Below are positions 6,301 to 50,738 of a stretch of DNA of 58,261 nt, one piece after another. The DNA comes from Verrucomicrobiia bacterium (GTDB lineage Bacteria; Verrucomicrobiota; Verrucomicrobiia; Verrucomicrobiales; DEV007). The stretch's first letter is position 1, and each line of letters opens with the position of its first letter. The notes beneath the pieces are model-generated. The model saw only the letters and a program-made list of their open reading frames with translations, was not told the DNA's origin and made no database searches. The position numbers and the translations under genes were made by a program. The stretch covers positions 1 to 58,261 of the forward strand of contig JAUIGD010000002.1 of the NCBI GenBank assembly GCA_030430255.1. Direction: 5' to 3'.

Positions 6301-8519
6301 CGGAGGACGAGCTCGCCGCCGGGCGCGGGTTGGAGTTCGGTGGTGTCCACCACATCGAGGCACCCTACGGGAGCACCGTCAGCGGGGAGTACACCGTCGA
6401 GGCCTGGGTCAAACCCGACAGCACCTCGCGGATGACGGTCTTCAGCACCCGCGGCGCCGCCGCCAACTACGGCTTCACGATGAAGATCCATGACGGCACG
6501 ACCTTCCTCGCCCACATCGGCTCGGCGACCGGCTGGATCGACACGGACGCCTCCGTGCAGCAGAACTACCGCGCCGGCGAGTGGGTGCACATCGCCTACG
6601 CCGTGCGGCAGACCGGCTACGACATCTACCTCAACGGCTGGCAGATCAAATCGCACGACCACATCGGCTCGCCCGCAGCGCCCGTGCTCACCGACCCGGC
6701 CCACCCGGTGAACATCGGACGCGACGGCATCTACGGCGAGAACTTCGACGGCGCCATCGACGAGGTGCGCATCTGGTCGGTGGCCCGGAGCGGCGAGGAG
6801 ATCGCCGCCGACATGCGCCGCACTGTCCCCGCCGACACGCCCGGCCTGGCCTCCTGTTGGCGCCTCGACGAGGCGGGCGGGCGCGACGTCGCCGACCTCC
6901 GGTCGCTGCGCCCCGGCGACCTCGTCGGCGCCACCACCCCGTGGGCGGCGATGCCGACGCCGGTGAACGCCCTGCTCGAGTCGGTCGATGAGATCCCGTC
7001 CGAGCTCGCGGTGGCGCTCGGCGGCAGCATCCCCGAGCCCTTCGCCTCGACGCACTACCGGATCGAGGTCGACCAGCCGGGCACGCTCGAGCTTTGGACC
7101 ACCGGCGGCACCGACACCATCGGCACGCTCTACCACAACGGCACCGGCACCCCGCTGGTGCAGATCGATGACACCGAGGGGCGGAACTTCCGCATCTTCT
7201 ACGACGTCACGGAGCCCGGCGTGTACCTCCTGGAAGTGAGCGGTTGGAGCGACTCCACCGGCGGCTACACCCTGCACGCGAACGTCCACGACGCGATCTT
7301 GCCGTTCGCGGCCAGCCTCTCGCCGACCGGCGTCTTCAGCATCGATACCCGCCTCGGCGCGAACTACTGGTTCCTCGGCTCCGGCGACCTGCTGCGCTGG
7401 AACTACCTCGTGCCGACCCCCTTGCCGGGCGAGGGCACGCGGGAGTTCGACCGGATCGACCCCGACGCCCTCGGCGCCAGGCAGTTCATCAAGGCCGTCG
7501 AATCCCCGGCCAAGGCGATGTTCGCCGCCCGCATCCGCGCCTCGACGAGTTCGGCGGGATACGCGATCGCCCACGGGCAGACGGCGGGCTACGCGCTCTC
7601 GCTCGCCGACCCGCCGAACTTCGGCGACACGACCATCACCGCCGACGGCGCGCCGCTGCGCCAGAGCGAGGGCGTGTTGCTGGCCAGCACCGGCAGCCTC
7701 GACACGTTCCGCAAGGTGACGACTTCGCCCGGCGAACTCACCGACAGCATCCCGGCCGGCTTCCCGGTCGGGACCTGGATCGCGACCACCGTCGAGAACG
7801 CCAACGAGGTGGCCTCCCTCAACGTCGGCCTCGCCCGCTTCCCCTTCGCCGACGGTTGGGCGGGCGGCCACATCGGCGCCGCCGGGGAGGTGCTGGCCTT
7901 CGCCCACCTGCCCGGCGGGTCCGCCCCCTTGGTCGTCGCCGCCGGGCGCCACCACCTGCCGAGCGAGAACGGCACCTTCACCCCGGACCTCGGCGCCCTG
8001 CTCGTCGTCGGCGCGGAGAACGGCGGCGTGCCCAAGGTCGTCAGCACCGGGACCGGTTTCGCCCCGGGGACGAACACCTACGGCTGGCGCGTGCGGGTCG
8101 ACCCCGCCACCAGCGACGGCAGCGCCCCGGCCGACGGCGCCTGGAGCTTCGTCTACGTCCCGTATGACACGCCCGACCTCACGGTCGGGCAGGTCGGCCG
8201 CACCGGGGCCACGGTGGCCTCCGGACCGGTGCCGTTCACCTGCACGCGCGATTTCACCACCGGGATCTACCGGCTGGAGATCCCTTCCATGGGCGACCTG
8301 GACGGCGGCGCCCTGTTGATCAACGCGCTCGATATCACCGTCGGCGTCGGCGGCACGGTAGCGCGCTCCTGCCATTTCGAGTGGCGCGTCGTCGACGGCG
8401 GCGCGGCGATCGAAATCCACCCCTTCGGCCTCCCGCTCGCCGCCGGCACCCGCATCCCCTGCGGGTTCGCCTTCGCCTACGTCCCCTTCGACCGCCTCGT
8501 GTTCGGCCCTCAGCGCTGA
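3309..8519 (+). CDS. Large secreted multidomain zinc metalloprotease (M11/M6-like)
   Basis: The 1736-residue product has an N-terminal signal or anchor helix (about residues 8-26). A metzincin-type zinc site HEFGHNYGLGH lies at residues 432-442. It is followed at about 472-482 by EYGDTFDMMS, which fits the Met-turn region of gametolysin-like (M11) and M6 peptidases. Downstream are two related beta modules at about 680-830 and 846-1000, each with a DGDG..WIDRDGDG Ca-binding-like loop and a DDFSVQWDGYLKV/QDFSVQYDGWLRV core (PA14-like). A LamG domain spans about 1010-1170, a bacterial pre-peptidase C-terminal domain (PPC) about 1244-1327, and the tail is long and unassigned. It likely degrades extracellular protein. 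It converges on the CotH gene and overlaps it by 10 bp. Exact family assignment (M11 versus M6) is uncertain. Confidence 0.88.
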   Translation: MPSSPRAPAIAAFLGLAAVCLLWFVHRQPPPDGPAPGAPTAGTADARDVADVPDGPDAIAAFDAWLATDLAGGAVDRPRAAGVRVTRSARELAAARGEEMLALIRSDPELALERALSWRQWLALPEPLRELVERPFSATGEYTVQSDCRPGAERVAEPRHRTWFTAAGGERLRVYPTAAWDGVTTKSELPVQGITIAGHAALRPGMVQILPATDARALGDHFPAHAESPPAGAGAVALVGGSRAGFASRAAAHEVSSALRETLTLPGHRTPRAALSVAFSASDGGGENIIGAASAESLAWSKAPKDVLVIRCDFSNWTGAPMTVAEIEAAVDGASPVLDEMSFGNAYIRSRTVTPEVFRLDGGDTFFYDDKGSGRLASDAKALAEAAGYVLADYDIFVFSFRATTKIGGAFANLGGSDQWETNVQDADTYLHEFGHNYGLGHSNFWVRAQAGGDWGERYGVNRSWGAAGNDEYGDTFDMMSVQFRQRPGIENVWQNGHFSMNNKVCLGWIEPDRVVNATGDGIYRIHRFDHPDAHSSGNKLGLTFRTGGGKRIWAGLRRKFPANHTLSTGAYLVWEHRPNQHRQLDGTPFSQIEGITSSITTDPMTMATEEYDHSDFDRDDSALAAGASWTAPDGSVRLTNLGLGGSAPDEYLDLKVEFLAEISPFPEFEVYTDAASETVGFVGSYFNGVLLGDDGDWTASDTPAGTRVDKDPRFFSKDWGDRDALGLTGGTADDWDDFSVQWDGYLKVTRPYVQTDLSIFTFAPGGGDARIWIDRDGDGTLEASERTTLTNFQTVDLPALGEGNYRVRMQYGHGTGANQFILTRNTQTLGIGEFEIFQDAALTDYGLTASFVNSSLRGVSSHADWRTSQTISGTRTEEMPLYWDNNMGPRGDVGITGGSDGRWQDFSVQYDGWLRVLRRTRFTTYGGDGMRLWIDRDGDGSFGSGAPEFQPGTWGQAGRHRYAPFGDWVEPGVYRLRIQREMGSTTYSNRFAFMGQAEDELAAGRGLEFGGVHHIEAPYGSTVSGEYTVEAWVKPDSTSRMTVFSTRGAAANYGFTMKIHDGTTFLAHIGSATGWIDTDASVQQNYRAGEWVHIAYAVRQTGYDIYLNGWQIKSHDHIGSPAAPVLTDPAHPVNIGRDGIYGENFDGAIDEVRIWSVARSGEEIAADMRRTVPADTPGLASCWRLDEAGGRDVADLRSLRPGDLVGATTPWAAMPTPVNALLESVDEIPSELAVALGGSIPEPFASTHYRIEVDQPGTLELWTTGGTDTIGTLYHNGTGTPLVQIDDTEGRNFRIFYDVTEPGVYLLEVSGWSDSTGGYTLHANVHDAILPFAASLSPTGVFSIDTRLGANYWFLGSGDLLRWNYLVPTPLPGEGTREFDRIDPDALGARQFIKAVESPAKAMFAARIRASTSSAGYAIAHGQTAGYALSLADPPNFGDTTITADGAPLRQSEGVLLASTGSLDTFRKVTTSPGELTDSIPAGFPVGTWIATTVENANEVASLNVGLARFPFADGWAGGHIGAAGEVLAFAHLPGGSAPLVVAAGRHHLPSENGTFTPDLGALLVVGAENGGVPKVVSTGTGFAPGTNTYGWRVRVDPATSDGSAPADGAWSFVYVPYDTPDLTVGQVGRTGATVASGPVPFTCTRDFTTGIYRLEIPSMGDLDGGALLINALDITVGVGGTVARSCHFEWRVVDGGAAIEIHPFGLPLAAGTRIPCGFAFAYVPFDRLVFGPQR
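8510..8519. other. Perfect palindrome carrying both convergent stop codons
   Basis: TCAGCGCTGA is self-complementary. Read on either strand it encodes Gln-Arg-stop, so the metalloprotease and the CotH protein both end in QR and share the same 10 bp. Whether it also helps terminate transcription cannot be told from sequence. Confidence 0.9.
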
Positions 8520-11500
8520 TCCACGCGCAGCCTCAGGAACGGTGGCGCGTCGGCCGGCAGCTCGTGGGAGATCCGCACCCTGCCGGAGCCGAGATCCTCG
8601 CGCCCGGACCAGGGCAGAGCGAGGGCCGTCCAGCCGGCGAGGTCATCCGCGCCCTCGGGCGTGACCCCGGCCGACTCGGCGGCGAGATCCAGCACGTAGC
8701 TCAACACCCGCGTCCCGTCGCCGAGCGAGGCGACCGCCAAGGCCGGCCGCACCGCGGGGTCGGCGTCGTCGCCCCCGAGCGCGAACTCGGCGAGTGCCGC
8801 CAGCCCGTCGCGGTCGCCATCGTCCCCGGGGTCGGCAGGCGCGGGCCGGGCGTCGGAGCCCCCCGGGCTGCCGCCGGGGAAGCGGCTCGATCGCCAGCTC
8901 GCCGGGTCGGCGTGGTCGGGGTCCGAGGCGGGCGCGATCAGCGTCAGCGAGAAGCCGCCGTTGTCGGGCGACTCCGGCCACGGCGCGCGGTCGTCGTAGC
9001 GGAACGAGCGCACGGTCGCGCCGTCCGCGGCGGTCAAGGTGATGGTCTCGCCGCCGTTGTCGAGGTCGCCGGAGAACTCGCCGGCGACCGGCAAGCCGGG
9101 CCCGTACTCGGCCTCGAACGCCGCCAGCCGATCGACCACCAAGACCCGCTCGCCGGGCGCGAGGGTCGCGCCTTGCGGGAACTCGAACTCGACCCCCTCC
9201 GTGAAGCGCAGGCCGGTCAGCTCGAGGGTCGCACCGCTGATGTTGGCCAGTTCGAGGAACTCCAACGCGCCGCCGCCGAGCGGCTTGTAGTGGATCTCGC
9301 TCACCGCCAACGAACCCGGCCCCGCAGGCGTGCCGACGATGAAGTCGGCGGTGTTCAGCGCCGACCACTCGCCGCCGGCCAGCGCCCGCGCCTTGACGCT
9401 GCCGGAGGCGGTCAAGGAGACGCCCGACGCGCCCCCGGCGCTCCGGGTGCCGGCGAGCGCGAGGTCGAGCACGAGGTCGCTGCTGCTGGTCGCGCTCTGG
9501 TGGACCTCGACCGCGAGCGTGTTCTCTCCCTCGACGAGGAGCCCCGGCGCCAGCGGCACCGTGAACGTGAGGTACGCTTCCTCGTCGGTGCCGCCGATGC
9601 CCTCCAGCGCGAGGGTCGTGAATTCGAGCGCGCCGGCCGGGAGGTTGCTGCGGACGATCTCGGCGCCGTTCAGATAGACCGCCGCGCCGTCGTCGCGACG
9701 CAGGGAGAGCGCGAGTTCGGTGAACGCGCCCGCCCCGGCCGCGGTGAAGGTTCGCCGGAAATATGCCGCCGGGTGCTTCGAAGCCAGCGGCCCGGAATCG
9801 ATGGTCGTGGCGATGTCCGGATCGCCGACGCCGCCGTAGCCGAGCGGCGCCGCGCCGGCGCCCCAGGCGGAGTCGTCATAACCCGCCGACGCCCAAGCGC
9901 CGGGCGGCGCCGAGCCGCCGTCGGAGTAGCGCCAACCGGACGCGCCGGCGGCGAGCAAGGTCTCGCTGACCGTCCCCGTCGCCAGGGCGATCGCAGCGGG
10001 GTTCACCGCGCCGCCGCGGAGGCGCGGATCGCTGCCGTCGAGCGTGAGGTAGATGGTGCCTGCGGGGGCGGTGACGCCGAGGGGGGAGCCTTCCGGCAAG
10101 GTGCCGCCGTGTTGAGAGAAAGCGGGCGCCGTGACATCCGGGTAGAGCCCCTGGGCGCGGAACTGGCCGAGCACGATCGCCGAGCGCTGCGGGAACCAGT
10201 TGGTCATTAGGTCTTCGCGCAGCGGCAGGAAATCCCCGGTCACGGTGTAGGGGTCCGACCGGCGGTAGTCGCCCCAGCGTGCGCTCTCGGCGACCAGCGC
10301 CGGGCGGATCTCCTCGGTCAGTTCGATCCACCGCGCGGCGGCGCTGTCGGCGGTGAGCGGGCCGCCGTTGAAGAACGCGCGGTGCAGGTGGTCGGCGAAG
10401 CGCAGGCGGTATTCGGCGTTGGCGCGCAGCGGGTGGTGGAACTTCGTCGGCGAGTCGTTGTCGCGCGAGTGCGGCTGCGTGCGGTCGATGCCCGCGGAGG
10501 GCTTCATGCCGTGCTCGTTGTCCCAGCTGAAGAATTTGAAGCCCGTGCCCGCCGCCGTGCGGTCGCGGGCGATGTAGTTGTTCCCCGGCCAGTCGGTGGC
10601 GGCGGAGTACATGTTGTGGATGACGTAGTCGATCAGGTTCGGCACGTCGAGGTAGCTGGGCAAAGCCGGGTCGGGCGTCCCGTCGGGGGCATTGCCCTGC
10701 AGCGCCTCGTACGCCGCCGCGGAGGAGAAGTCGCGGTAGCCGGCACCGAAATTGCCGGGGTCGTTCTGGATCAGCGCTAACAACTCGTTGTAGCCGACAC
10801 CGTCGCCGTCGATGACCTCCTCGTGATTCTTGAGCGCGTCGTAGTCGTCCTTGTCACCGCCGAAGTAGCTGGCCGCAAAGCTGGCGTCCGGCCGCTCGAC
10901 GGGGTTGTAGACCCCCCAGTAGAGGCCGTTGAGATAGAGGTGGACCCAGGTGCCGTGAGGGCTCGGCCGGCCCATCTCCAGCTGCGTGCGCCGGTTCCAC
11001 TCGTCGCGGACGAACTGCCCGGCGCGGTTGCCGGCGCTGTTGTAGACCCACGCGTCCTGGGAGTTCGAGCGCAGGATGACCGTGTCGAACCGGTCGGCGG
11101 CCGACCCGCCGAACAGCGGATAGTCGAGCTTGCCGGCGCTGTACGCCCGGCGGAAGATCAGCCGTAGCGAGTGCTTCGGGTTGCGCGTCGGGTCGCGCGA
11201 GGTGAAACCCTGCAGGCGCACGCCGCAGTCGATCTGCAACAGCCCCCCATCGACGGGGTCGATCAGCTCGATCGAACACGGTCGCTCCCACGCGGCTCCG
11301 CGCCCTTCGGTGTTATGATAGATGCCGGTCGCCGGGCTGAACAGGTGATCGACATCGGTCACCAGCGAGAGCGTCGGTAGCGCCCGCAGCGACTCCGCGA
11401 CCGCGGCCTTGGCGGCGGCTTCGTCGGCCGCAGGGTCATCGACGATCGCGCGCAGATCGGTCAGATTTTGATCCATCCCGTAGTCCCAGCCGGTCCAGGT

Positions 11501-12943
11501 CGTCGGGAACCCGGGCGGTTGGTCGGGCTGGTCGGGGACGTGCGCGGTAAAGACGTAGGTGTGCGTGTCGATGTTGGTCGGCTCGTGGCCCGCGAGGAAC
11601 GCGGCGGCCCGCACGATGCGCGTGGTGTCGATCGCCACAGGCGCGCTGTAGACCGCGCCGTGGTCGGGCGCCGGCTCCGAGCCGTCGAGCGTGTAACGGA
11701 TCTCCGCGCCGGGCGTGGCGGTGGTGATGGCCAGCGCGAAAGGCGCGTCGTAGAGCCCGCGGTCGCGGCTGAACTTCGTGTCCGCGACGAAGCCGGCGAC
11801 CGGCTCGCCGATGTTGCGCGCACCGGGTGTCGGCGCCGTGAAGTAGCCGCGCGCCAGCGGGAGCTCGGTGCCGATTTGTCCGTAAGACACGTCCTCGCGC
11901 TGCTCGGGATAGGCAGCGAACGAATCGACCAGTTCCCAGCCGCCCGCGCCGTCCGGGCGGTGCAAGGCCAGGTGCCCGCCCGCCGAACGATCGATGCGGA
12001 AGTCCGTGTGGAGGTGGCCGCCCGGGTCGGCGTAGCCCCCGCCGCCCTTGCCCGAGGCGAACACCACCAAGTATCCATCGCTTTGCAAGACCGAACCGTC
12101 CGGGAAACGCCAGAGCCCCGGCGCCGCCGGGTCGTCGCTGAGCGCCCATCCGGAGAGGTCGAGCGCGGCCCCGGTCGAGTTCCAGATCTCGACCCAGTCC
12201 GGGGCGTCGCCGTCGCCGTCGGTCAGCGTGTCCGCGTTCGAGGCCATGAACTCGGTGAGGAAGGCGCCCCCGAGCACGAGCGGCGGGGGCGGCGGGCCCG
12301 CGAGCGCGAGCTCGAACCCGCACAAGGCGAAGTGGTCCGGCGTCCCCTGGTCGGGGCCGCGGACGAAATCCACGTGGGCCGCCCCGGCGGCATCGACGAC
12401 GAACTCGAGCTCGACGACGCTCAGCGCGGGGCTGGCGTTATCGGACATCGCGACGCCGGACGCGACCGGCACGGCATCGCCGGCGGCGTCGGTGAGGCGG
12501 ACGTCGAACGGCGTCGCCGGCGGGCGTTCGGAGGGGCCGAACTGCGTCGTGTGGTGATAGGTGGTCAGCGCGTAGCTGCCGGGCAGCAACCCGGAGAAGG
12601 TCAGCGTCATCACCCCGGCGCGGTTGAGGAGCGGCCCGTCGGAGAGCAGCGCGCTGTCGGCGGCGAAGGCGCCGGTCGCCGGCGCGTAATCGCGGGCGTG
12701 CGAGTTGCCCGCCAGCGCGACCGCGACCGAACCGCCCAGGCCGGCGAGTTCGTCATCGGCGAAGGGAGCCGCGACTTCGTCCCCGCCCGTCCCCGGCAGG
12801 CCGAAACCGAGCCAGCCGGTTTGTAGCGGTGCCAACCCGGCGTCGTCCGAGCGGCTGAAGTCCACCCGCAGCGGTCCGGCGGCAACCGATCCGCCCACAC
12901 CGAGGGAGCCCAGCGTCACCAGCAGTCGAGCGAGAGGGGGCAT
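8510..12943 (-). CDS. Secreted CotH-kinase/lamin-tail-domain protein
   Basis: The 1477-residue product starts with a signal peptide (MPPLARLLVTLGSLGVGGSV). I chose the ATG at 12943 over an upstream in-frame start at 13072 because of this peptide and the promoter 7 nt before it. The domain order is as follows. The shared 'IDFG'-type domain spans about 25-220. A lamin-tail domain follows at about 231-330 (LTEFMASN, DWVEIWN). A chitobiase/HEX C-terminal-like domain lies at about 400-470 (IRYTLDGSEP). A CotH-like kinase domain spans about 550-910 (RLQGFTSRD, HLYLNGLYWGVYNPVERPD, FFSWDNEHG). A second LTD covers about 1210-1330, and the end is a DGDRDGLAALAEFALGGDDADP module plus a beta tail. CotH proteins are atypical protein kinases of spore coats and secreted bacterial proteins. 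The substrate here is unknown. Confidence 0.9.
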   Translation of the reverse strand: MPPLARLLVTLGSLGVGGSVAAGPLRVDFSRSDDAGLAPLQTGWLGFGLPGTGGDEVAAPFADDELAGLGGSVAVALAGNSHARDYAPATGAFAADSALLSDGPLLNRAGVMTLTFSGLLPGSYALTTYHHTTQFGPSERPPATPFDVRLTDAAGDAVPVASGVAMSDNASPALSVVELEFVVDAAGAAHVDFVRGPDQGTPDHFALCGFELALAGPPPPPLVLGGAFLTEFMASNADTLTDGDGDAPDWVEIWNSTGAALDLSGWALSDDPAAPGLWRFPDGSVLQSDGYLVVFASGKGGGGYADPGGHLHTDFRIDRSAGGHLALHRPDGAGGWELVDSFAAYPEQREDVSYGQIGTELPLARGYFTAPTPGARNIGEPVAGFVADTKFSRDRGLYDAPFALAITTATPGAEIRYTLDGSEPAPDHGAVYSAPVAIDTTRIVRAAAFLAGHEPTNIDTHTYVFTAHVPDQPDQPPGFPTTWTGWDYGMDQNLTDLRAIVDDPAADEAAAKAAVAESLRALPTLSLVTDVDHLFSPATGIYHNTEGRGAAWERPCSIELIDPVDGGLLQIDCGVRLQGFTSRDPTRNPKHSLRLIFRRAYSAGKLDYPLFGGSAADRFDTVILRSNSQDAWVYNSAGNRAGQFVRDEWNRRTQLEMGRPSPHGTWVHLYLNGLYWGVYNPVERPDASFAASYFGGDKDDYDALKNHEEVIDGDGVGYNELLALIQNDPGNFGAGYRDFSSAAAYEALQGNAPDGTPDPALPSYLDVPNLIDYVIHNMYSAATDWPGNNYIARDRTAAGTGFKFFSWDNEHGMKPSAGIDRTQPHSRDNDSPTKFHHPLRANAEYRLRFADHLHRAFFNGGPLTADSAAARWIELTEEIRPALVAESARWGDYRRSDPYTVTGDFLPLREDLMTNWFPQRSAIVLGQFRAQGLYPDVTAPAFSQHGGTLPEGSPLGVTAPAGTIYLTLDGSDPRLRGGAVNPAAIALATGTVSETLLAAGASGWRYSDGGSAPPGAWASAGYDDSAWGAGAAPLGYGGVGDPDIATTIDSGPLASKHPAAYFRRTFTAAGAGAFTELALSLRRDDGAAVYLNGAEIVRSNLPAGALEFTTLALEGIGGTDEEAYLTFTVPLAPGLLVEGENTLAVEVHQSATSSSDLVLDLALAGTRSAGGASGVSLTASGSVKARALAGGEWSALNTADFIVGTPAGPGSLAVSEIHYKPLGGGALEFLELANISGATLELTGLRFTEGVEFEFPQGATLAPGERVLVVDRLAAFEAEYGPGLPVAGEFSGDLDNGGETITLTAADGATVRSFRYDDRAPWPESPDNGGFSLTLIAPASDPDHADPASWRSSRFPGGSPGGSDARPAPADPGDDGDRDGLAALAEFALGGDDADPAVRPALAVASLGDGTRVLSYVLDLAAESAGVTPEGADDLAGWTALALPWSGREDLGSGRVRISHELPADAPPFLRLRVDQR

Positions 12944-12950
12944 GGGGCAG

Positions 12951-12980
12951 AGTGTAGCGCGGACCGGCGGCGGCGGAAAG
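12951..12980 (-). promoter_or_regulatory. Predicted promoter of the CotH gene
   Basis: On the minus strand: CTTTCC (12980-12975), an 18-bp spacer, -10 TACACT (12956-12951), then 7 nt to the ATG. The -10 is good and the -35 weak. The spacing implies a leaderless transcript. Confidence 0.45.
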
Positions 12981-13046
12981 CGGGTAGTGGTGGGCCGCGC
13001 CGGAGAGCGTGGATCGGTTCCCCCCCACGCTGCGGGCGACGCCGGC

Positions 13047-13092
13047 GCAAAAAGATTGGCGTCTCCCGTCACCGAACTGCGCCGATGGGGAC
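13047..13092 (+). promoter_or_regulatory. Conserved upstream motif of the S74/ECF sigma/kinase operon
   Basis: The motif is GCAAAA followed by TTGGCGTC (13056-13063), 14 bp, TGCGCCG (13078-13084), 8 bp and the ATG. The same two blocks with identical spacing precede the FG-GAP gene at 21054. Because the operon encodes an ECF sigma factor, this is a candidate target promoter, possibly autoregulated. It does not resemble the TTGCC/TAnnnT promoters elsewhere in the window. Confidence 0.5.
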
Positions 13093-15756
13093 ATGAAGCG
13101 GACCTCCATCGTGCTCGCCTGCCTTTGTCAGCTCTGTCACGCCGCCGCCCCGGTGGCGGTGCCGAACACCGTCCCGCACCAGGGGCGGATCGCGGTCGAT
13201 GGCGTGAATTTCGACGGGCTCGGGAGGTTCAAATTTGAGATCTACGCCGCGACGCAGGTCGCCGGGGAGCCGGCGGTCGGGCAGGCGATCATCGGCGAGC
13301 TGGGCGGGGTGGAGGCGGTGGAGGTCGTGGAGGGGGGATCGGGCTACCTCGAGGCGCCCGCGGCCAAGCTGCCGAATGGCAACGAGGAAGGCCACGGGCT
13401 GGCACAGTTCGATTGCGTCGTCGCAGGGGGTTCGGTGGTCGCGGTGCAGGTGCTCGACCCCGGCGCCCTATACCCGTTGGGCGAGGGGCCGCTGGAGTTG
13501 GTGATCGACCCGCCGGGGGGGTTGGTCGCGGGGGAGCGGCGGCTCTGGGCGCACGACGGGACGCCGGCGGGAGGGCCGGTGAGCTACATGGAGGTGCCGG
13601 TCGAGCGTGGGCTCTACTCGGTGCAACTGGGTGGCGCGGGCATGGAGCCGCTGCCGGAGGACCTCGCGCCCGCGGAGGAGGGCGAGCAGTTGTTCCTGCG
13701 CATCTGGTTCGACGACGGCGTCAACGGCTTCGCCGCGCTGGCCCCGGACACGCCGCTGTCGTCCTTGCCCTTCGCCCTCAGCGCGCGGCGCGCGGCGCAG
13801 GCGGATTTCGCCGAGGTCGCCGGGGCGATGCAGCCGGGCAGTATCACGACCGAGATGCTCGCCGACGGCGCGATCACCCGCGACAAGCTCGGCGGCGCGC
13901 CCGCCGTGTCGGGCGATCGAGCGCTGCCCCAGCCGTCCGGCGGCACGCTCCAGGTGACGTTCGACGAGCCCTTCGGACAGGTGCCGACCATCTCGCTGCC
14001 CGACGGCGAGGACTACCCGGTGAGCAACGTCACCACCACCGGCTTCGAAGTGGAGATGCCGGTGTCGTTCGAGGTCGAGCCCTTCGCAGGGCACGCGCTC
14101 GGTGTGGATTCGGTGGTGCTGCAGGGGGGTGCGATCGGACTTTTGATCCGCACTTCCGGAGGGCTCCGTTTTGTCCGCGCATTGGATGCGGCGGGAACGG
14201 CCTGGTCGCCGCCGGTGACCGTGGCGCCGACCCCGCCCGGCGAGATGGTCGGACTGGGGGACTACGGCGGCAGTCCAGGGTTCTTCTACCGAGCCGGCGG
14301 CGTGGTCACCTTCTACCGCGCGGCCGACCCGTCGGGCAGCGTCTGGAACGCGCCGGTGACGGTGCTCTCGCTCGACAGCGCATTCTTCGACTCGATCATG
14401 GACCCGAGGAACGACGAGCGGATCGGAGGGATCGCCGTCGCGAAGATCGCCGGCGCGCCCGCGGTGGCGCTTTGGGCGGCCGCGCGCCTCGAGATCGGCG
14501 GCCAGGGCGGATGGGTGGCGCGGATCGCCTACCGCCGCGCGGTGGGATCCACCGGCGCTCTGTGGGGGGCGGTTTCGGCGACCGGCACGTTCTCCGCGGG
14601 CGATGCCGCCAGGGACGCGGTGGCCCTGACCGACTTCGGCGGCCAGCCGTGCCTCGGCTTCACCATCGCGACGAAGCACACTTCGGCCTGGGACCCCTCG
14701 GGCTACTACACGTTCGATTCGCACGTCGCGCTCGGCGCCGACGCGAACGCGGCGTCGTGGTCGGCGCCGGTCGCGGGCGGGATCGGCGGAGGGGAGCTCG
14801 ATGACGACAGTGGCTTCCTGGCCGCGTTCCTCGACAGCGAGCATTTCGAGAAGTTCTACTTCAGTCGCACGCTGCTCCCCGGCATTTCGGGATGGGGCGA
14901 CTGGACACAGGTGGCGTACGGCACGAACGAGATCGGGGACCTCGCAGCTCGGGAGTTCACCCTGGACCTCTCAGGCCCGGTGCCGGCGGTGCTCGGCCTC
15001 GGCTGGGGTGAAGGCGAGCTCCAGGCGTGGCGCTGGCAGGCCAACGATGCGGCCGGACAAAACTGGGCCGCCCCGGTGCCGGAGCCGGTGCCCGCGGTGC
15101 GCGCCCTGGGAGGGGACTTCATCCTCGGCGGGCGGATCTTCGAGAGGATCGGCAGCCACCCCCTGCGCTACCGCAGCGGCCCGGAGATCGCCCCGAGCCT
15201 CCGCTGGATCGCGGCTTCGCCGGACGGCGGGGGCGTGTTCGGCGAGGGCACGCTCGGCGGCGGCGAGGAGTTGGAGATGGTCTTCGGCCGCTACAACGTG
15301 CAGGTGCCGGACGCCGCCGTGGTGGTGGGCAACGGCGCTTCGGATGGGGCGCGCTCGAACGCGCTGGTGGTGACGACGGCGGGCGACCTCTACGTCGGCA
15401 ATGACGCCTACAAACCCGGCGGCGGCAGCTTCCTCAACAGCTCCGACGCGCGCCTGAAGAAGGTCGAGGACGAGCGCTTCGGCGAAGGTCTGGATGCCAT
15501 CGCGAACCTCAAGCCGGTGCGCTACCGCTACCGCCGGGACAACCCGCTCGGCCTGCCGAGCGACCGTGCCTACGTCGGCGTGCTGGCGCAGGAGCTCGAG
15601 GCGGTGCTGCCGGAGGCGGTGAGCTACGACCGCTCGGGCTACCGGCTGGTGAACAACGACGTGGTGCTGTGGACGATGCTCAACGCGGTCAACGAACTGC
15701 GCGCGGAGAACGAGTCGCTGCGGGCGCGGGTCGGGCAACTGGAGGCGGCGCGATGA
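13093..15756 (+). CDS. Secreted tail-fibre-like protein with C-terminal S74 auto-processing domain
   Basis: The 887-residue product starts with a signal peptide (MKRTSIVLACLCQLCHAAAP). This ATG is preferred to one at 13009 because of the signal peptide and the upstream motif. The N-terminal half resembles secreted collar or tail-fibre proteins, including a PGSITTEMLADGAITRDKL segment at about 256-275. The middle (about 330-690) is a repetitive beta-rich region with many W/F-S-A-P-V repeats. The C-terminus is a Peptidase_S74 domain: the catalytic motif SDARLK puts Ser784 and Lys789 five residues apart, as in the endosialidase chaperone dyad. A trimeric coiled-coil-like end follows (ELRAENESLRARVGQLEA). 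S74 domains drive trimer folding and then cut themselves off. It is the first gene of a four-gene operon and overlaps the next by ATGA. Confidence 0.82.
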   Translation: MKRTSIVLACLCQLCHAAAPVAVPNTVPHQGRIAVDGVNFDGLGRFKFEIYAATQVAGEPAVGQAIIGELGGVEAVEVVEGGSGYLEAPAAKLPNGNEEGHGLAQFDCVVAGGSVVAVQVLDPGALYPLGEGPLELVIDPPGGLVAGERRLWAHDGTPAGGPVSYMEVPVERGLYSVQLGGAGMEPLPEDLAPAEEGEQLFLRIWFDDGVNGFAALAPDTPLSSLPFALSARRAAQADFAEVAGAMQPGSITTEMLADGAITRDKLGGAPAVSGDRALPQPSGGTLQVTFDEPFGQVPTISLPDGEDYPVSNVTTTGFEVEMPVSFEVEPFAGHALGVDSVVLQGGAIGLLIRTSGGLRFVRALDAAGTAWSPPVTVAPTPPGEMVGLGDYGGSPGFFYRAGGVVTFYRAADPSGSVWNAPVTVLSLDSAFFDSIMDPRNDERIGGIAVAKIAGAPAVALWAAARLEIGGQGGWVARIAYRRAVGSTGALWGAVSATGTFSAGDAARDAVALTDFGGQPCLGFTIATKHTSAWDPSGYYTFDSHVALGADANAASWSAPVAGGIGGGELDDDSGFLAAFLDSEHFEKFYFSRTLLPGISGWGDWTQVAYGTNEIGDLAAREFTLDLSGPVPAVLGLGWGEGELQAWRWQANDAAGQNWAAPVPEPVPAVRALGGDFILGGRIFERIGSHPLRYRSGPEIAPSLRWIAASPDGGGVFGEGTLGGGEELEMVFGRYNVQVPDAAVVVGNGASDGARSNALVVTTAGDLYVGNDAYKPGGGSFLNSSDARLKKVEDERFGEGLDAIANLKPVRYRYRRDNPLGLPSDRAYVGVLAQELEAVLPEAVSYDRSGYRLVNNDVVLWTMLNAVNELRAENESLRARVGQLEAAR

Positions 15757-16664
15757 GGGCGACGGTCGCTTTGGCTTGGCTCGGGATCGCGGCCGCGCAG
15801 GCGGCGTCGCCGTACGCCTTGGTGGTGTCCTCGCTCGGCGACGGCGCACCCGGGGCGCAGGGCGGCCCCTACCGGGCGGACCCGGCGGTGGGCGGCGGCG
15901 GGCGTACCGGCGCCCAGGCGGCGGACGCGGCGTCCGGGTATGCAGGCCTGTTGACCGACCCGGTGGCCTTGGCCGCCGCGCCCGCCGAACCGTCCGTCCC
16001 AGAGGGCGCGCAAAACGCCCTCGGCGCGGCGGCGCTGATGGACGACGGCACGCTGACGGCACTGGAACCGGACTGGGTGGCGTGGTCGGTGCAGGGCGGG
16101 CCGCTGACCGGCATCGACGCCGACGGCTTGGCCTGGGCGGGGGCGGTGCGCGCGCCGGCACTGGCGGAGTTCGGCGCGGCGTGGGGCGGCTTCGACGCCG
16201 GCGGTGCGTTCTGGGTCGAGGACTCCGACCCCGACAACTTCGGCCCGGTCGCCGGCGACGGCCTGCCCGACGGCTGGCAGTTCGACCACTTCGACACCGA
16301 CGCCGATGGCGCGCTCGACGCTTCCGAACTGGCCGCCGCCAACCCCGGCGCCGACGGCGATGGCGACGGGCAGAGCAACGCTTTCGAGTGGTTGGCCGGC
16401 TACGACCCCGGCGACGCCCTGTCCCGCTTCGAGGTCGAGCTGCTGGGCGTCGATGGCCGGGTGGCGACGCTCCGGCTGTCGCGCGTCCGCCCCGGCGTGC
16501 GCTACGAGCTGCGCGCCGCCGGCCTCCCCGGCGCCGCGCCGGGCGCGCTGATCGCGACCCTCCAACCGGAGGCCGAGGCCGACGGGGTCACCGTCGAGGC
16601 GGGTTGGGAGGACGGCGGCGGCGAGCGCGGCTTTTTCTGGGTGGACCTGTCCGATCCGCCCTAG
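15753..16664 (+). CDS. Small secreted protein with DGDG Ca-binding-like loop
   Basis: The 303-residue product begins at the ATG overlapping the previous stop (ATGA) and has a signal peptide (MRATVALAWLGIAAAQAA). The first half contains PEGAQNALGAAALMDDGTLTALEPDWVAWSV-type low-complexity sequence with no family I recognise. Residues about 160-225 hold acidic D-x-D-x-DG loops (SDPDNFGPVAGDGLPDGW, DTDADGALDASEL, GDGDGQSNAFEWLAGYDP) like thrombospondin type-3 or EF-hand calcium loops. The C-terminal ~80 residues form a beta-type module similar in position to those ending the CotH and FG-GAP proteins. It lies 10 bp before the sigma factor gene. Confidence 0.75.
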   Translation: MRATVALAWLGIAAAQAASPYALVVSSLGDGAPGAQGGPYRADPAVGGGGRTGAQAADAASGYAGLLTDPVALAAAPAEPSVPEGAQNALGAAALMDDGTLTALEPDWVAWSVQGGPLTGIDADGLAWAGAVRAPALAEFGAAWGGFDAGGAFWVEDSDPDNFGPVAGDGLPDGWQFDHFDTDADGALDASELAAANPGADGDGDGQSNAFEWLAGYDPGDALSRFEVELLGVDGRVATLRLSRVRPGVRYELRAAGLPGAAPGALIATLQPEAEADGVTVEAGWEDGGGERGFFWVDLSDPP

Positions 16665-16674
16665 GTTCCGCCCG

Positions 16675-17276
16675 ATGCAGCCGCCCGAACACACCGCCCC
16701 CGGGGCGGGCGCGACCCACCGCGTCACCGAATTGCTCGGCGGCGTGGCGGCGGGCGATTCGGGTGCTGCCAACGAGTTGCTAGAGATCGTGTACGGCCAC
16801 CTGCGCAAGATCGCCGCGCGGCGCATGGCCGGCGAGCGCCCGGGGCACACGCTGGGCGCGACGGAGCTGGTGCACGAGGCCTACCTCAAGATGGCGGGCA
16901 GCCTCGGCGAGCGCGACTGGAAGACGCGCGGCCACTTCTACGCGGCGGCGGCGGAGGCGATGCGGCGCATCTTGGTCGACCACGCGCGGCGCCGCCTGAG
17001 CGCCAAGCGCGGTGGCGGCGCGGAGCGGGACTTCATCGACGTCATCGAGCTCGCGGCCGAGGGCGACTCGGAGGCGGTGCTCGCCCTGCACGAGGCGGTC
17101 GACCGCCTGGAGGCCGCCCACCCGGCGGCGGCGGCGGTGGTCAAACTGCGCTTCTTCGCCGGCCTGAGCGTGATCGAGACCGGCGAGTCGCTGGGGATCT
17201 CGGAGCGCAGCACGGTGCGCCACTGGCGGTTCGCCCGCGCTTGGCTGTACGACAAACTGTCCAGGGGGGCGGCGCT

Positions 17277-17280
<4 letters not shown>
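16675..17280 (+). CDS. ECF-type RNA polymerase sigma factor
   Basis: The 201-residue product matches the sigma-70 ECF-like family typical of Planctomycetes and Verrucomicrobia (PF07638 type). Region 2 is at about 25-110 (HLRKIAARRMAGERPGHTLGATELVHEAYLKM, then HFYAAAAEAMRRILVDHARRR). Region 4 is at about 135-195 (LRFFAGLSVIETGESLGISERSTVRHWRFARAWL). No anti-sigma gene is adjacent; instead a Ser/Thr kinase gene overlaps it by GTGA, the usual partner of this sigma family. It probably directs RNA polymerase to the TTGGCGTC-N14-TGCGCCG motif found in front of its own operon and the FG-GAP gene (inference). Confidence 0.9.
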
Positions 17281-20978
<3,698 letters not shown>

Positions 20979-21053: not shown

Positions 21054-23912
21054 ATGAGCGCGAATTCTCTCCCCCCGTCGCCCGCCCGCCTCGCTGTGCA
21101 CGCGGCGTTCGCTTTGATGCCTTTCCTGGCGATCCCTGCGGGCGCCGTCCAACCGGGCGAGGATCGGCACTTCACGGTCGCGGTCGGAGACAGCGCCGAG
21201 GGCCAGGAGTTCGGCCGGGCCCTATCGATCAGCGGCCCGCGCATGGCGGTCGGAGCGCCCGGCTACGGGGTGCGCGGAGCGGTGTTCGTCTACCGGCGCG
21301 GCGAGGGCCACCAATGGGGCCAGGTCGATCGCATCGATGGCCCTCCCGGCACGCTGCGCTTCGGCGAGACGGTTTCGTTGGATGGCGAGCGCCTCGCGGT
21401 CGGCGCGCCGGCTTCGGACTTCAGCGAGCTCACCAGCGAAGGCACCACGGTCCATGTCGGCGCCGGTCGCGCGTTCGTCTATCGCGGGGAGCCAGAAACG
21501 GCGGGCGAGGGCTGGGCGCTCGAGTCCGAACTCTACCCCGCCGAACCCGCGGGCGGCGCGCGCTTCGGCGAGAGCCTCGCGTTGAGCGGCGGCAACGTGC
21601 TCGTCGCCGCCCCGGACCATGGCGCCGGCAAGGTGACCGCCTTCGCGTGGACCGGCGGCGCCCCGGCCTGGCAGCGGGCCGGCACGCTCGAACCCACCGA
21701 CCCGGAGGTGGCTCGCTTCGGCCGCAGCGTCGACGCCCACGGCGACCGCGCGATCGTCGGTGCCGCGCACGCTTCCGAGACGGGCGTCGCTTTGCTCTAC
21801 GAGCGCGAGCCGGCAGGTGGCGGCGCTTGGTCGCTGGCGCAAACCTTCGCCCGCCCGGACGGCGACCTCGAGAGCGAGGGCTGGGCGCATCGCGTGCGCA
21901 TCGACGGTGGCCTGCTGGCGGTCGGGTCGTTCCGCGGGCCGCGCGCGGGCAACGAAGGTTCCGTCTACCTCTACCGCGCATCCCCGACGGGTTGGGACCA
22001 GGAGCTGCGGATCGATCCGCCGTCGCCGGGCGACCGCTTCGCGAACGACTTCGATCTGAGCGGGGACCAGCTCGCCATCGGCTCGCCGTTGTTCGGCAAC
22101 TCCGGCAGCGTCTTCCGCTACGCTTTCGGCTACGTGCCATCGCTCGGGAAGAATGGGTGGCATTCGCTGCCGCCGCTCGCGCTGGGCACCGGCATCCAAC
22201 CCGCCGCGTTCGGTGCGGCGGTCGCCGTCGGCGGCGGGTTGACCGCGGGCGGTGCGCCGGGCGCCGCGAACGACTTCTTCGGCGGGGTCGGCGAAGTCGT
22301 GCTCGCGCTGAACGCCACATTTCCGGAATGGGGCGAACTGGCCGAGGCGCCCGGCGACGAGTTTGGGGCGGCGCTCGACTTCGACGGCGCGCGCGCCGTC
22401 GTCGGCGCCCCCGGGGCTCGGGAGGTGAAGGTCTACGAGCACGCGCCGGGCGTCGCGCCCCAGTGGATCGGCACGCTGTCGCCACCGGCGGGCTCCGACC
22501 CGGCCGACCGCTTCGGCGCCGCGGTCGCGGTCGAGGGTCCGCTCGTCCTCGTCGGCGCCCCGGGCGCCAACAACGACACCGGTGCGGCGTGGATCTTCGA
22601 GCAGACCGGCACCGGCCCGGGCGGCACCCCGGTCTGGACGCGTCGCGATCTGACCGGAGCCACCGTCGGGGGCGACTCGCGCTTCGGCGCCGCGGTCGCG
22701 CTCAACCGCGGCCAGGCCTTCATCGGTGCGCCGGGCGCGACCGCCAGCAAGAAGATCGGCGGGCTTTGGTTCTTGATGATCGAGGTCGGCCTCGTCGCCA
22801 TCCACGACGCCGACACCGGCGGCCCGAACGCCTGGGGGCGCCGCCAGACCCTGCGCCACGGGCAGCCGGAGGGCGGGCAGCGCTTCGGCTACTCGCTCGA
22901 CGCCTCCGGCGACTACCTCGCGATCGGCGCCCCGTCCATCGCGCCGCAGCATTCCCCCGCCTCAGTCTGGGTCTATCACAACACCGACCCCGCCGCCGAC
23001 TGGGACCTCCTCCGCTCGCGGGACGCCATCGCCACCGAGCCGCCCGGGCTGCTCGGGACGGCGGTCGCCATCGGCGCCGATGGGCTCGCCGCCTACGGCG
23101 ACCGCGCGTTCACGGCGGGGTTAGTGTACTTCTACCAAGAACGGCTCGACCCGCTGCCGCCGCCCGCCCTCGGTGCCCTGTTCTCGTTGGACCCGGCCAC
23201 GCCCGGGCAATTCGGCGCCTCGTTGGCCATCGACAACGGCCGGGTGTTGATCGGTCATCCCGACGACGGCAACCCGGAGTTCGGCAAGGCCTACCTATTC
23301 ACCGCGCCCCCCACCGAAGAGGGGTACTACCACGCCCTCGACCACTGGCGGATCGACGAACTCAACCCCTCGTTGCGGCTCGGCGACGGCGCGAACGGGA
23401 CCGCCGCCGCGCTCGCCGCCGGCGTGGCGCTGGTCGGCCAACCCGGACTCGGCAGCGGAGGCGCCGTGAACGGCTACGAACTCGATGGCTCCTCCTTCGC
23501 CGAGTGGCAGGCCTACCACTACCCCGGACAAATCGCCCCCGGCCGCGCGGATGACACCGATGGTGACGGTCGCGCCGAAGTCTTCGAATGGCTGGCCGGC
23601 ACCGACCCGCATGCCACCGACGTGGGGCCGCCGATCACGATCCGCCACGCACCCGGTGGCGGCTCGCTGCTCGTCGAGTTCACCGCGCCCGCATGGCCGT
23701 CGAGAGGGGCCGGGCCGCAGCTCGACCAATCGACCGATCTGCAGAAGTGGTTCCCCGCCGCCTGGGCCGACGCCGGCGGCAGCTGGTGGGGGGCGCAGAC
23801 GCTCACCGCGCCCTCCGCGTCCCCCGGTCACCGGCGCGTCAGCCTCGCCTTCCCCGTGCAATCGGGAGGGGCGCTGCACTTCGAGCTGCGGGCCGACCCG
23901 CCGGGGAACTGA
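21054..23912 (+). CDS. Secreted FG-GAP repeat protein
   Basis: The 952-residue product has a signal peptide (about residues 1-32, ending near IPAGA). The body (about 35-840) is a series of FG-GAP/integrin-type blades with recurring FG.ALSISG..M.VGAPGYGVRGAVFVY, RFGESLALSGGNVLVAAP and DRFGAAVAVEGPLVLVGAPG units, predicted to fold as a beta-propeller. Next comes DDTDGDGRAEVFEWLAGTDP (about 838-857), the acidic-loop module also seen in the small secreted protein and the CotH protein, then a ~95-residue beta tail. It probably acts at the cell surface or outside. Its upstream motif matches that of the sigma/kinase operon that ends 75 bp before it. Confidence 0.85.
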   Translation: MSANSLPPSPARLAVHAAFALMPFLAIPAGAVQPGEDRHFTVAVGDSAEGQEFGRALSISGPRMAVGAPGYGVRGAVFVYRRGEGHQWGQVDRIDGPPGTLRFGETVSLDGERLAVGAPASDFSELTSEGTTVHVGAGRAFVYRGEPETAGEGWALESELYPAEPAGGARFGESLALSGGNVLVAAPDHGAGKVTAFAWTGGAPAWQRAGTLEPTDPEVARFGRSVDAHGDRAIVGAAHASETGVALLYEREPAGGGAWSLAQTFARPDGDLESEGWAHRVRIDGGLLAVGSFRGPRAGNEGSVYLYRASPTGWDQELRIDPPSPGDRFANDFDLSGDQLAIGSPLFGNSGSVFRYAFGYVPSLGKNGWHSLPPLALGTGIQPAAFGAAVAVGGGLTAGGAPGAANDFFGGVGEVVLALNATFPEWGELAEAPGDEFGAALDFDGARAVVGAPGAREVKVYEHAPGVAPQWIGTLSPPAGSDPADRFGAAVAVEGPLVLVGAPGANNDTGAAWIFEQTGTGPGGTPVWTRRDLTGATVGGDSRFGAAVALNRGQAFIGAPGATASKKIGGLWFLMIEVGLVAIHDADTGGPNAWGRRQTLRHGQPEGGQRFGYSLDASGDYLAIGAPSIAPQHSPASVWVYHNTDPAADWDLLRSRDAIATEPPGLLGTAVAIGADGLAAYGDRAFTAGLVYFYQERLDPLPPPALGALFSLDPATPGQFGASLAIDNGRVLIGHPDDGNPEFGKAYLFTAPPTEEGYYHALDHWRIDELNPSLRLGDGANGTAAALAAGVALVGQPGLGSGGAVNGYELDGSSFAEWQAYHYPGQIAPGRADDTDGDGRAEVFEWLAGTDPHATDVGPPITIRHAPGGGSLLVEFTAPAWPSRGAGPQLDQSTDLQKWFPAAWADAGGSWWGAQTLTAPSASPGHRRVSLAFPVQSGGALHFELRADPPGN

Positions 23913-49991: not shown

Positions 49992-50738
49992 ATGGAGGAG
50001 CCGCCGCCCAGCCCCACCGGCGCCGCCTCGCCCCGCTTCCCCGACACGCGCTGGTCGCTGGTGTCGGAGCTGCGGCGCGGGGGCGATGCCCGCGAACGGG
50101 CGCTGTCCGACCTGTGCCGCGTCTACTGGTTCCCGATCTACGCCTTCGCGCGCGGCAAGGGCTGCGACCAGCACCTCGCCGAGGACCTGACGCAAGACCT
50201 GTTCGCCAAGTTCCTCTCGCACGACTCCTTCGCCGCCGCCGACCCCGGCCGGGGCAAGATGCGCACCTTCCTGCTCACGGCGATGTCGCGCCTGATGGCG
50301 AGCGACGCCCGGCGGCGCGGGGTCGCCAAACGCGCCCCCGAGAGGACGGCGATCTCCATCGAGCGCGACCTCGCCGAAGAGATGCTCCAGTCCGGGGCGG
50401 CCGAGCTTTCCCCGGAGGAGGATTTCGACCGCCGCTGGGGCGAGGCGATCTTGCGCGAGGTCGAGTCGAAGCTCGCCGGCGAACACGAGCGGCGTGGCAA
50501 AGCGGCGCAGTTCGCAGCCTTGAAACCCTACCTCTTGCCGGGGGCCGGCGACGAGGGCTACGCGGGCGAGGCGGCCTCGCTCGGCATGTCCGAGGGCGCG
50601 GTCAAGGTGGCGGTGTTCCGCCTGCGGCAACGGTTCCGCACGCTGATGCGGGAGGAGGTCGAACAGACGCTCACCGCCGAAGAGGACGTCGATGACGAAC
50701 TGCGCCACCTCTACGCGGCCCTGGCGCGGGCGATGTAG
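49992..50738 (+). CDS. Second RNA polymerase sigma-70 family (ECF-like) factor
   Basis: The 248-residue product has region 2 at about 20-110 (TRWSLVSELRRGGDARERALSDLCRVYWFPIYAFARGKG, EDLTQDLFAKFL, MRTFLLTAMSRLMASDARRR) and region 4 at about 175-225 (EAASLGMSEGAVKVAVFRLRQRFRTLMREEVEQTL). It differs from the first sigma factor and matches the type found in Planctomycetes and Verrucomicrobia. The ATG at 49992 is preferred to an upstream TTG. No kinase or anti-sigma gene is adjacent in this window. The next gene converges on it. Confidence 0.88.
   Translation: MEEPPPSPTGAASPRFPDTRWSLVSELRRGGDARERALSDLCRVYWFPIYAFARGKGCDQHLAEDLTQDLFAKFLSHDSFAAADPGRGKMRTFLLTAMSRLMASDARRRGVAKRAPERTAISIERDLAEEMLQSGAAELSPEEDFDRRWGEAILREVESKLAGEHERRGKAAQFAALKPYLLPGAGDEGYAGEAASLGMSEGAVKVAVFRLRQRFRTLMREEVEQTLTAEEDVDDELRHLYAALARAM

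Follow-up and report, generated by a model that had tools for sequence, protein, structure and literature searches.

In sigma factors of the extracytoplasmic function (ECF) class ECF43, the DAED motif of region 2.2 is replaced and the replacement holds a phospho-threonine position (PMC8999054, PMC13147305); the consensus is QTTA, and in EcfK the threonine is followed by glutamate (PMC13147305). EcfK of Xanthomonas citri is paired with the Hanks-type kinase PknS, and the pair sits in and induces an anti-amoeba type VI secretion system (T6SS) cluster (PMC8999054, PMC13147305). EcfP/PknT of Vibrio parahaemolyticus, another ECF43 pair, responds to polymyxin; its sigma factor has an intrinsically inactive-type region 2.2 motif in which the phospho-threonine position is kept (PMC8999054). 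The S74 subgroup of the Bdellovibrio MAT fibres (e.g., Bd3182) consists of proteins of about 900 amino acids (aa) with a signal peptide, a beta-rich N-domain without PDB homologue and an SDxxxK S74 end; self-cleavage of Bd3182 at S782 has been shown, genomes hold both S74 and non-S74 versions, and how the fibres are anchored to the cell is described there as unknown (PMC10769870). Here we analyse a 58,261-nucleotide stretch from a Verrucomicrobiia bacterium (contig JAUIGD010000002.1 of assembly GCA_030430255.1; hereafter the window, contig C423 in our survey), in which genes for a MAT-like adhesive fibre, a secreted partner, an ECF43-like sigma factor and a transmembrane kinase form one unit. 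Such fibres are linked with ECF43-like sigma factors repeatedly and not at random, although the majority of fibres and of sigma/kinase pairs lack the link. By analogy with EcfK/PknS, we judge the chances to be evenly balanced that a phospho-activated ECF43 switch, co-transcribed with the fibre, has that fibre as its output.

All four genes lie on the forward strand: the fibre gene (gene 1, 887 aa, 13093..15756), the secreted partner (gene 2, 303 aa, 15753..16664), the sigma factor (gene 3, 201 aa, 16675..17280) and the Hanks-type Ser/Thr kinase (gene 4, 17277..20978). Genes 1 and 2 overlap at ATGA, 10 bp separate gene 2 from the sigma ATG (16675), and the sigma stop codon (17278-17280) and the kinase start codon (GTG, 17277) share the overlap GTGA. 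No terminator-like sites were found in a scan of the gaps between the four genes. A preliminary description had proposed this four-gene unit, and its coordinates and junctions are confirmed, as are the gene types it named: an S74 fibre, a DGDG-loop secreted protein, a sigma factor and a kinase with TPR repeats. The same types recur together in other lineages. The host assembly is fragmented, with 679 contigs totalling 6.6 Mb, a completeness of 89% and a contamination of 6.75%, and the relatives of the window fall in Verrucomicrobiales/Verrucomicrobiaceae.

Gene 3 matches PF07638/TIGR02999 (197.7 bits vs 126) and is an ECF sigma factor with only regions 2 and 4. DAED is replaced in its region 2.2 by GATE (aa 61-64, 16855..16866, forward strand), in which Thr63 (codon 16861-16863) sits at the position of the EcfP and EcfK phospho-threonines and would be expected to accept the phosphate. 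Taken together, the motif, the family match and the adjoining transmembrane Ser/Thr kinase gene suggest that gene 3 is ECF43-like. Related sigma factors carry GATE, QATA or QPTA in place of DAED, with threonine third in nearly all whose motif was read, and most of them also adjoin a gene for a transmembrane Ser/Thr kinase. The window kinase keeps the GxGxxG, VALK, HRDLKPAN and DFG motifs in a Pkinase domain (aa 82-283), followed by a single transmembrane (TM) segment (~aa 353-371) and extracytoplasmic TPR_12 repeats. This is the kinase-TM-TPR layout of PknS (PMC13147305), from which it differs in ending in an extra beta-type region. The resemblance to EcfK/PknS extends to the sigma motif, in which Thr is followed by Glu, and to the encoding of the pair beside a surface machine that it may control. 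In place of a T6SS, the pair here adjoins an adhesive fibre cassette, and phosphorylation and targets are predicted by analogy. No fibre genes have been described with EcfP/PknT. In one relative, two sigma matches (L188, G009:C297, and G009:C16) are split over two frames, and these copies look broken.

Linkage was scored from six-frame matches in 190 genomes of the order; the sigma type occurs in 55 of them, the fibre N-domain in 59 and both in 31. An ECF43-like sigma gene lies within 5 kb of a fibre gene on the same strand in the window and in six other genomes, which count as five independent lineages because G038 and G058 are near copies; three families are represented. Random placement, taken as uniform and using gene counts from the order-wide searches, expects 0.18 such pairs, against five observed (P ~1e-6, a ~28-fold excess). 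The arrangements are sigma-fibre-gene 2 (L182), sigma-kinase-fibre followed by the contig end (L183), sigma-small gene-fibre-gene 2-kinase (L184), sigma-kinase-fibre-gene 2 (L185) and sigma-kinase-fibre (L186/L187), with a looser case in another family of the class (L202 in G380). The order fibre-gene 2-sigma-kinase with an ECF43-like sigma is found only in the window. The preliminary description had called for a check of gene-order conservation: the linkage of S74 fibre and ECF43 sigma recurs in five further lineages, and a fixed four-gene order is not conserved. At L253, fibre-gene 2-sigma-kinase-fibre-gene 2 occurs with a different ECF class that keeps DAED-like acids, and this class, with a kinase, adjoins fibre cassettes at L251 and L259 as well. 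It is common (~17 per genome), and its excess near fibres is therefore mild: by a hand count among the matches listed, at least about six pairs share a strand and lie within 5 kb, where about one would be expected. Among the first 37 relatives, fibre pairs stood apart from sigma/kinase pairs and the linkage seemed refuted, a result overturned by the order-wide cross-match. The circuit had also been called undescribed. The ECF43 switch itself is already described (EcfP/PknT, EcfK/PknS); no description of its link with a fibre was found in the literature searched, which left most subscription papers out of reach. The recurrent grouping points to direct control of fibre production by a signal, and would connect adhesive fibres of the self-cleaving, phage-like kind, here outside Bdellovibrio, with a sigma switch activated by phosphorylation.

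The layout of gene 1 is that of a putative trimeric fibre with an adhesive tip: a signal peptide, a beta-rich N-domain (13150..13800, forward strand), a region of WSxPV-type repeats, an S74 chaperone/protease domain (15442..15621, forward strand) and a coiled-coil-like C-terminal end. Peptidase_S74 (PF13884) matches aa 784-843 (E 4.6e-12; 46.5 bits, cut-off 22). The protein has a single SDxxxK motif (SDARLK, aa 784-789), which supplies the Ser/Lys pair of S74, Ser784 (codon 15442-15444) and Lys789 (codon 15457-15459). Self-cleavage at Ser784 is predicted on the precedent of Bd3182. PHROG tail-fibre matches are restricted to the C-terminal part, from ~aa 656. The N-domain is common to other Verrucomicrobiota fibres, the window copy having an insertion of ~85 aa. 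Its homology to Bdello_MAT_N (NF053851) is distant: the window domain scores 17.6-19 bits, below the 60-bit cut-off for MAT membership, and no related N-domain reaches that cut-off among the bit scores shown, although 27 of 33 match at E<=0.01 (best 3.4e-10). The predicted structure is beta-rich (mean pLDDT 72.6; best core parts >90) and has no PDB fold match at E<=0.001, in agreement with the statement on the MAT N-domain (PMC10769870). Apart from this sub-threshold N-domain, the window system differs from the Bdellovibrio fibres in having gene 2 as a dedicated neighbour and in being sometimes encoded with ECF/kinase genes; there is no evidence of predation. The S74 Ser/Lys motif is present in all seven ECF43-linked fibres, the window included, whereas among the 53 fibres of the order without such a link 16 have it (Fisher P 0.004 for the five independent cases with the window left out; 0.0017 against a wider set), a comparison of small numbers made with an S74 model derived from these same sequences. 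That S74 is required for any ECF linkage was rejected, as fibres beside the DAED-containing class are often without it (L251, L259). The repeat region of gene 1 has matches in open frames of ~5,700-5,900 aa in three other genomes (G033:C2, G029:C3, G036:C5).

Gene 2 is a previously undescribed secreted family. No curated family matches it above cut-off, the only hits being sub-threshold EF-hand matches over its DGDG loop. The protein has a signal peptide, a disordered N-terminus, a Big2 Ig-like domain, the EF-hand-like DGDG loop and a C-terminal beta-sandwich; a structural model built from an alignment of 46 relatives (mean pLDDT 83.6) shows the Ig-like domain, the loop with short helices and the sandwich. 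The best PDB matches of the Ig-like domain are LigA and LigB (Foldseek E 6e-5 to 6e-4), whose Big2 domains in Leptospira share its fold; gene 2 has a single such domain, joined to the loop and sandwich, and no overall homology to these proteins. A fibre gene lies within 1 kb on the same strand at 69 of 83 strong gene 2 relatives (fibre first in 55, gene 2 first in 14), a biased rate inasmuch as some loci were found via the fibre and a few are near-duplicates. Among 70 loci located by gene 2 alone, a fibre within 5 kb accompanies nearly every strong match. Gene 2 is in most cases a habitual neighbour of MAT-like fibres, and it is a direct candidate for the anchor in a system related to the MAT fibres. 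In a larger cluster of the same genome (G000:C509; L102, L103), an S74 protein is followed by a secreted giant of 2806 aa, a DGDG protein of the FPPAPHHEI type, a protein with one TM segment, and then gene 2 with a second S74 fibre; the order at L106 is similar.

If the fibre is the output of the switch, an outside signal would meet the kinase ectodomain, whereupon the kinase would autophosphorylate and phosphorylate Thr63 of the sigma factor. The phosphate would replace the missing acidic charge of DAED and allow binding to RNA polymerase, and the sigma factor would then transcribe its own operon, so that fibre is made on demand. Once exported, the fibre would trimerise under the S74 domain, cleave itself at Ser784 and shed the chaperone, and it would probably be held at the surface by its N-domain together with gene 2. 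The sequences themselves show the gene content, the overlaps, the motifs and a linkage that recurs beyond chance. Phospho-activation, self-cleavage and the role of the fibre as output are modelled on the precedents named above; that gene 2 serves as anchor, and what the signal might be, we purely infer. Support for the output role comes from the gene overlaps and terminator-free gaps, the threonine motif of the sigma factor, the PknS-like kinase layout, the recurrent linkage, the EcfK/PknS precedent and the fibre cassettes that lie beside the DAED-containing ECF class and its kinase. Several observations weigh on the other side. The majority of fibre cassettes lack an ECF43 neighbour, and ECF43 matches are absent altogether from 28 of the 59 genomes of the order that carry fibres, so fibres do not need such a switch; close sigma relatives (L226, L227) have the kinase and no fibre; and the linkage has been gained or lost repeatedly, with at least four changes, for which insertion preference may be partly responsible. 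Glu64 in the window motif could possibly permit some basal activity without phosphorylation, and no promoter recognised by the gene 3 sigma was identified, autoregulation being a proposal.

A second explanation, which we regard as possible but distinctly less probable, is that a mobile cassette of fibre and gene 2 landed beside or inside sigma/kinase loci, giving adjacency and shared transcription without regulatory meaning. L184 and L226 share a TIM-barrel gene/sigma/kinase locus at ~82-92% DNA identity; sigma and kinase matches are separated by 28 bp in L226 and by a 5.8 kb fibre cassette in L184, as such insertion would predict. Descent from one inherited operon was rejected, since the linked sigma factors form no single clade and need at least four label changes on an 82-row tree, and this scatter too would fit a mobile cassette, as would the many cassette copies elsewhere. 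Several features are harder to reconcile with such a landing: fibre and sigma genes share a strand wherever an ECF43 pair lies within 5 kb, the genes are closely spaced (in the window, junctions of 4 bp and 10 bp), pairs are in ~28-fold excess over random placement, and S74-type fibres are over-represented among those linked. Together with a cultivable relative, the present/absent pair L184/L226 would make regulation and anchoring testable.

The reverse direction of signalling is unlikely. In this scheme the kinase ectodomain would sense the fibre or its released S74 part, and assembly or contact would drive the sigma factor, as the shared operon and the retention of the S74 pair in every ECF43-linked fibre might suggest. 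The preliminary description had assigned such sensing of assembly and cleavage to the TPR region, a proposal that fails on the variety of the ectodomains: at linked loci they are TPR (window), WD40 (two), C-type lectin, LRR-like or none recognised. A common TPR sensor is thereby rejected, and unrelated ectodomains would be odd for a shared fibre ligand. Fibres beside the other ECF class, for their part, often lack S74. Units of fibre and gene 2 are found mostly by themselves, and most complete sigma/kinase pairs are without fibres. A variable ectodomain with a retained fibre accords with an exchangeable sensor and a constant output. The C-type lectin kinase (L185, 10596-12194, reverse strand), directly upstream of the fibre and downstream of the ECF43 sigma, is a natural candidate for ligand sensing. 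More doubtful still is a contact-sensing loop in which S74 self-cleavage or target binding alters a fibre/gene 2 complex that the kinase reads, phosphorylating the sigma factor to yield more fibres; sensing of the fibre is a weaker model than the fibre as output. That the sigma/kinase pair governs envelope stress genes elsewhere, with the fibre one of many regulon members, is very improbable given the recurrent fibre linkage, even though EcfP/PknT controls polymyxin resistance (PMC8999054) and other ECF43 pairs here lack a consistent surface gene alongside.

Upstream of the fibre lies an intergenic region of ~149 bp (12944..13092), which is most likely the site of the operon promoter because the CotH/LTD gene beyond it is divergent. 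A promoter scan found no sigma-70-like match in this region, and promoter and Rfam scans gave nothing useful. Downstream, 75 bp after the kinase and in the same direction, a gene for a secreted protein with FG-GAP_2 repeats (21054..23912, forward strand) may be a fifth member of the unit; it was not seen adjoining the other four gene types in other genomes. The divergent gene (8513-12943, reverse strand) encodes a large secreted CotH/LTD protein with a relative near L103, the genome's other fibre locus. The window also contains a second sigma gene (49992-50738), which belongs to another, DAED-like ECF class that is abundant in these genomes, with 24 matches in this assembly.
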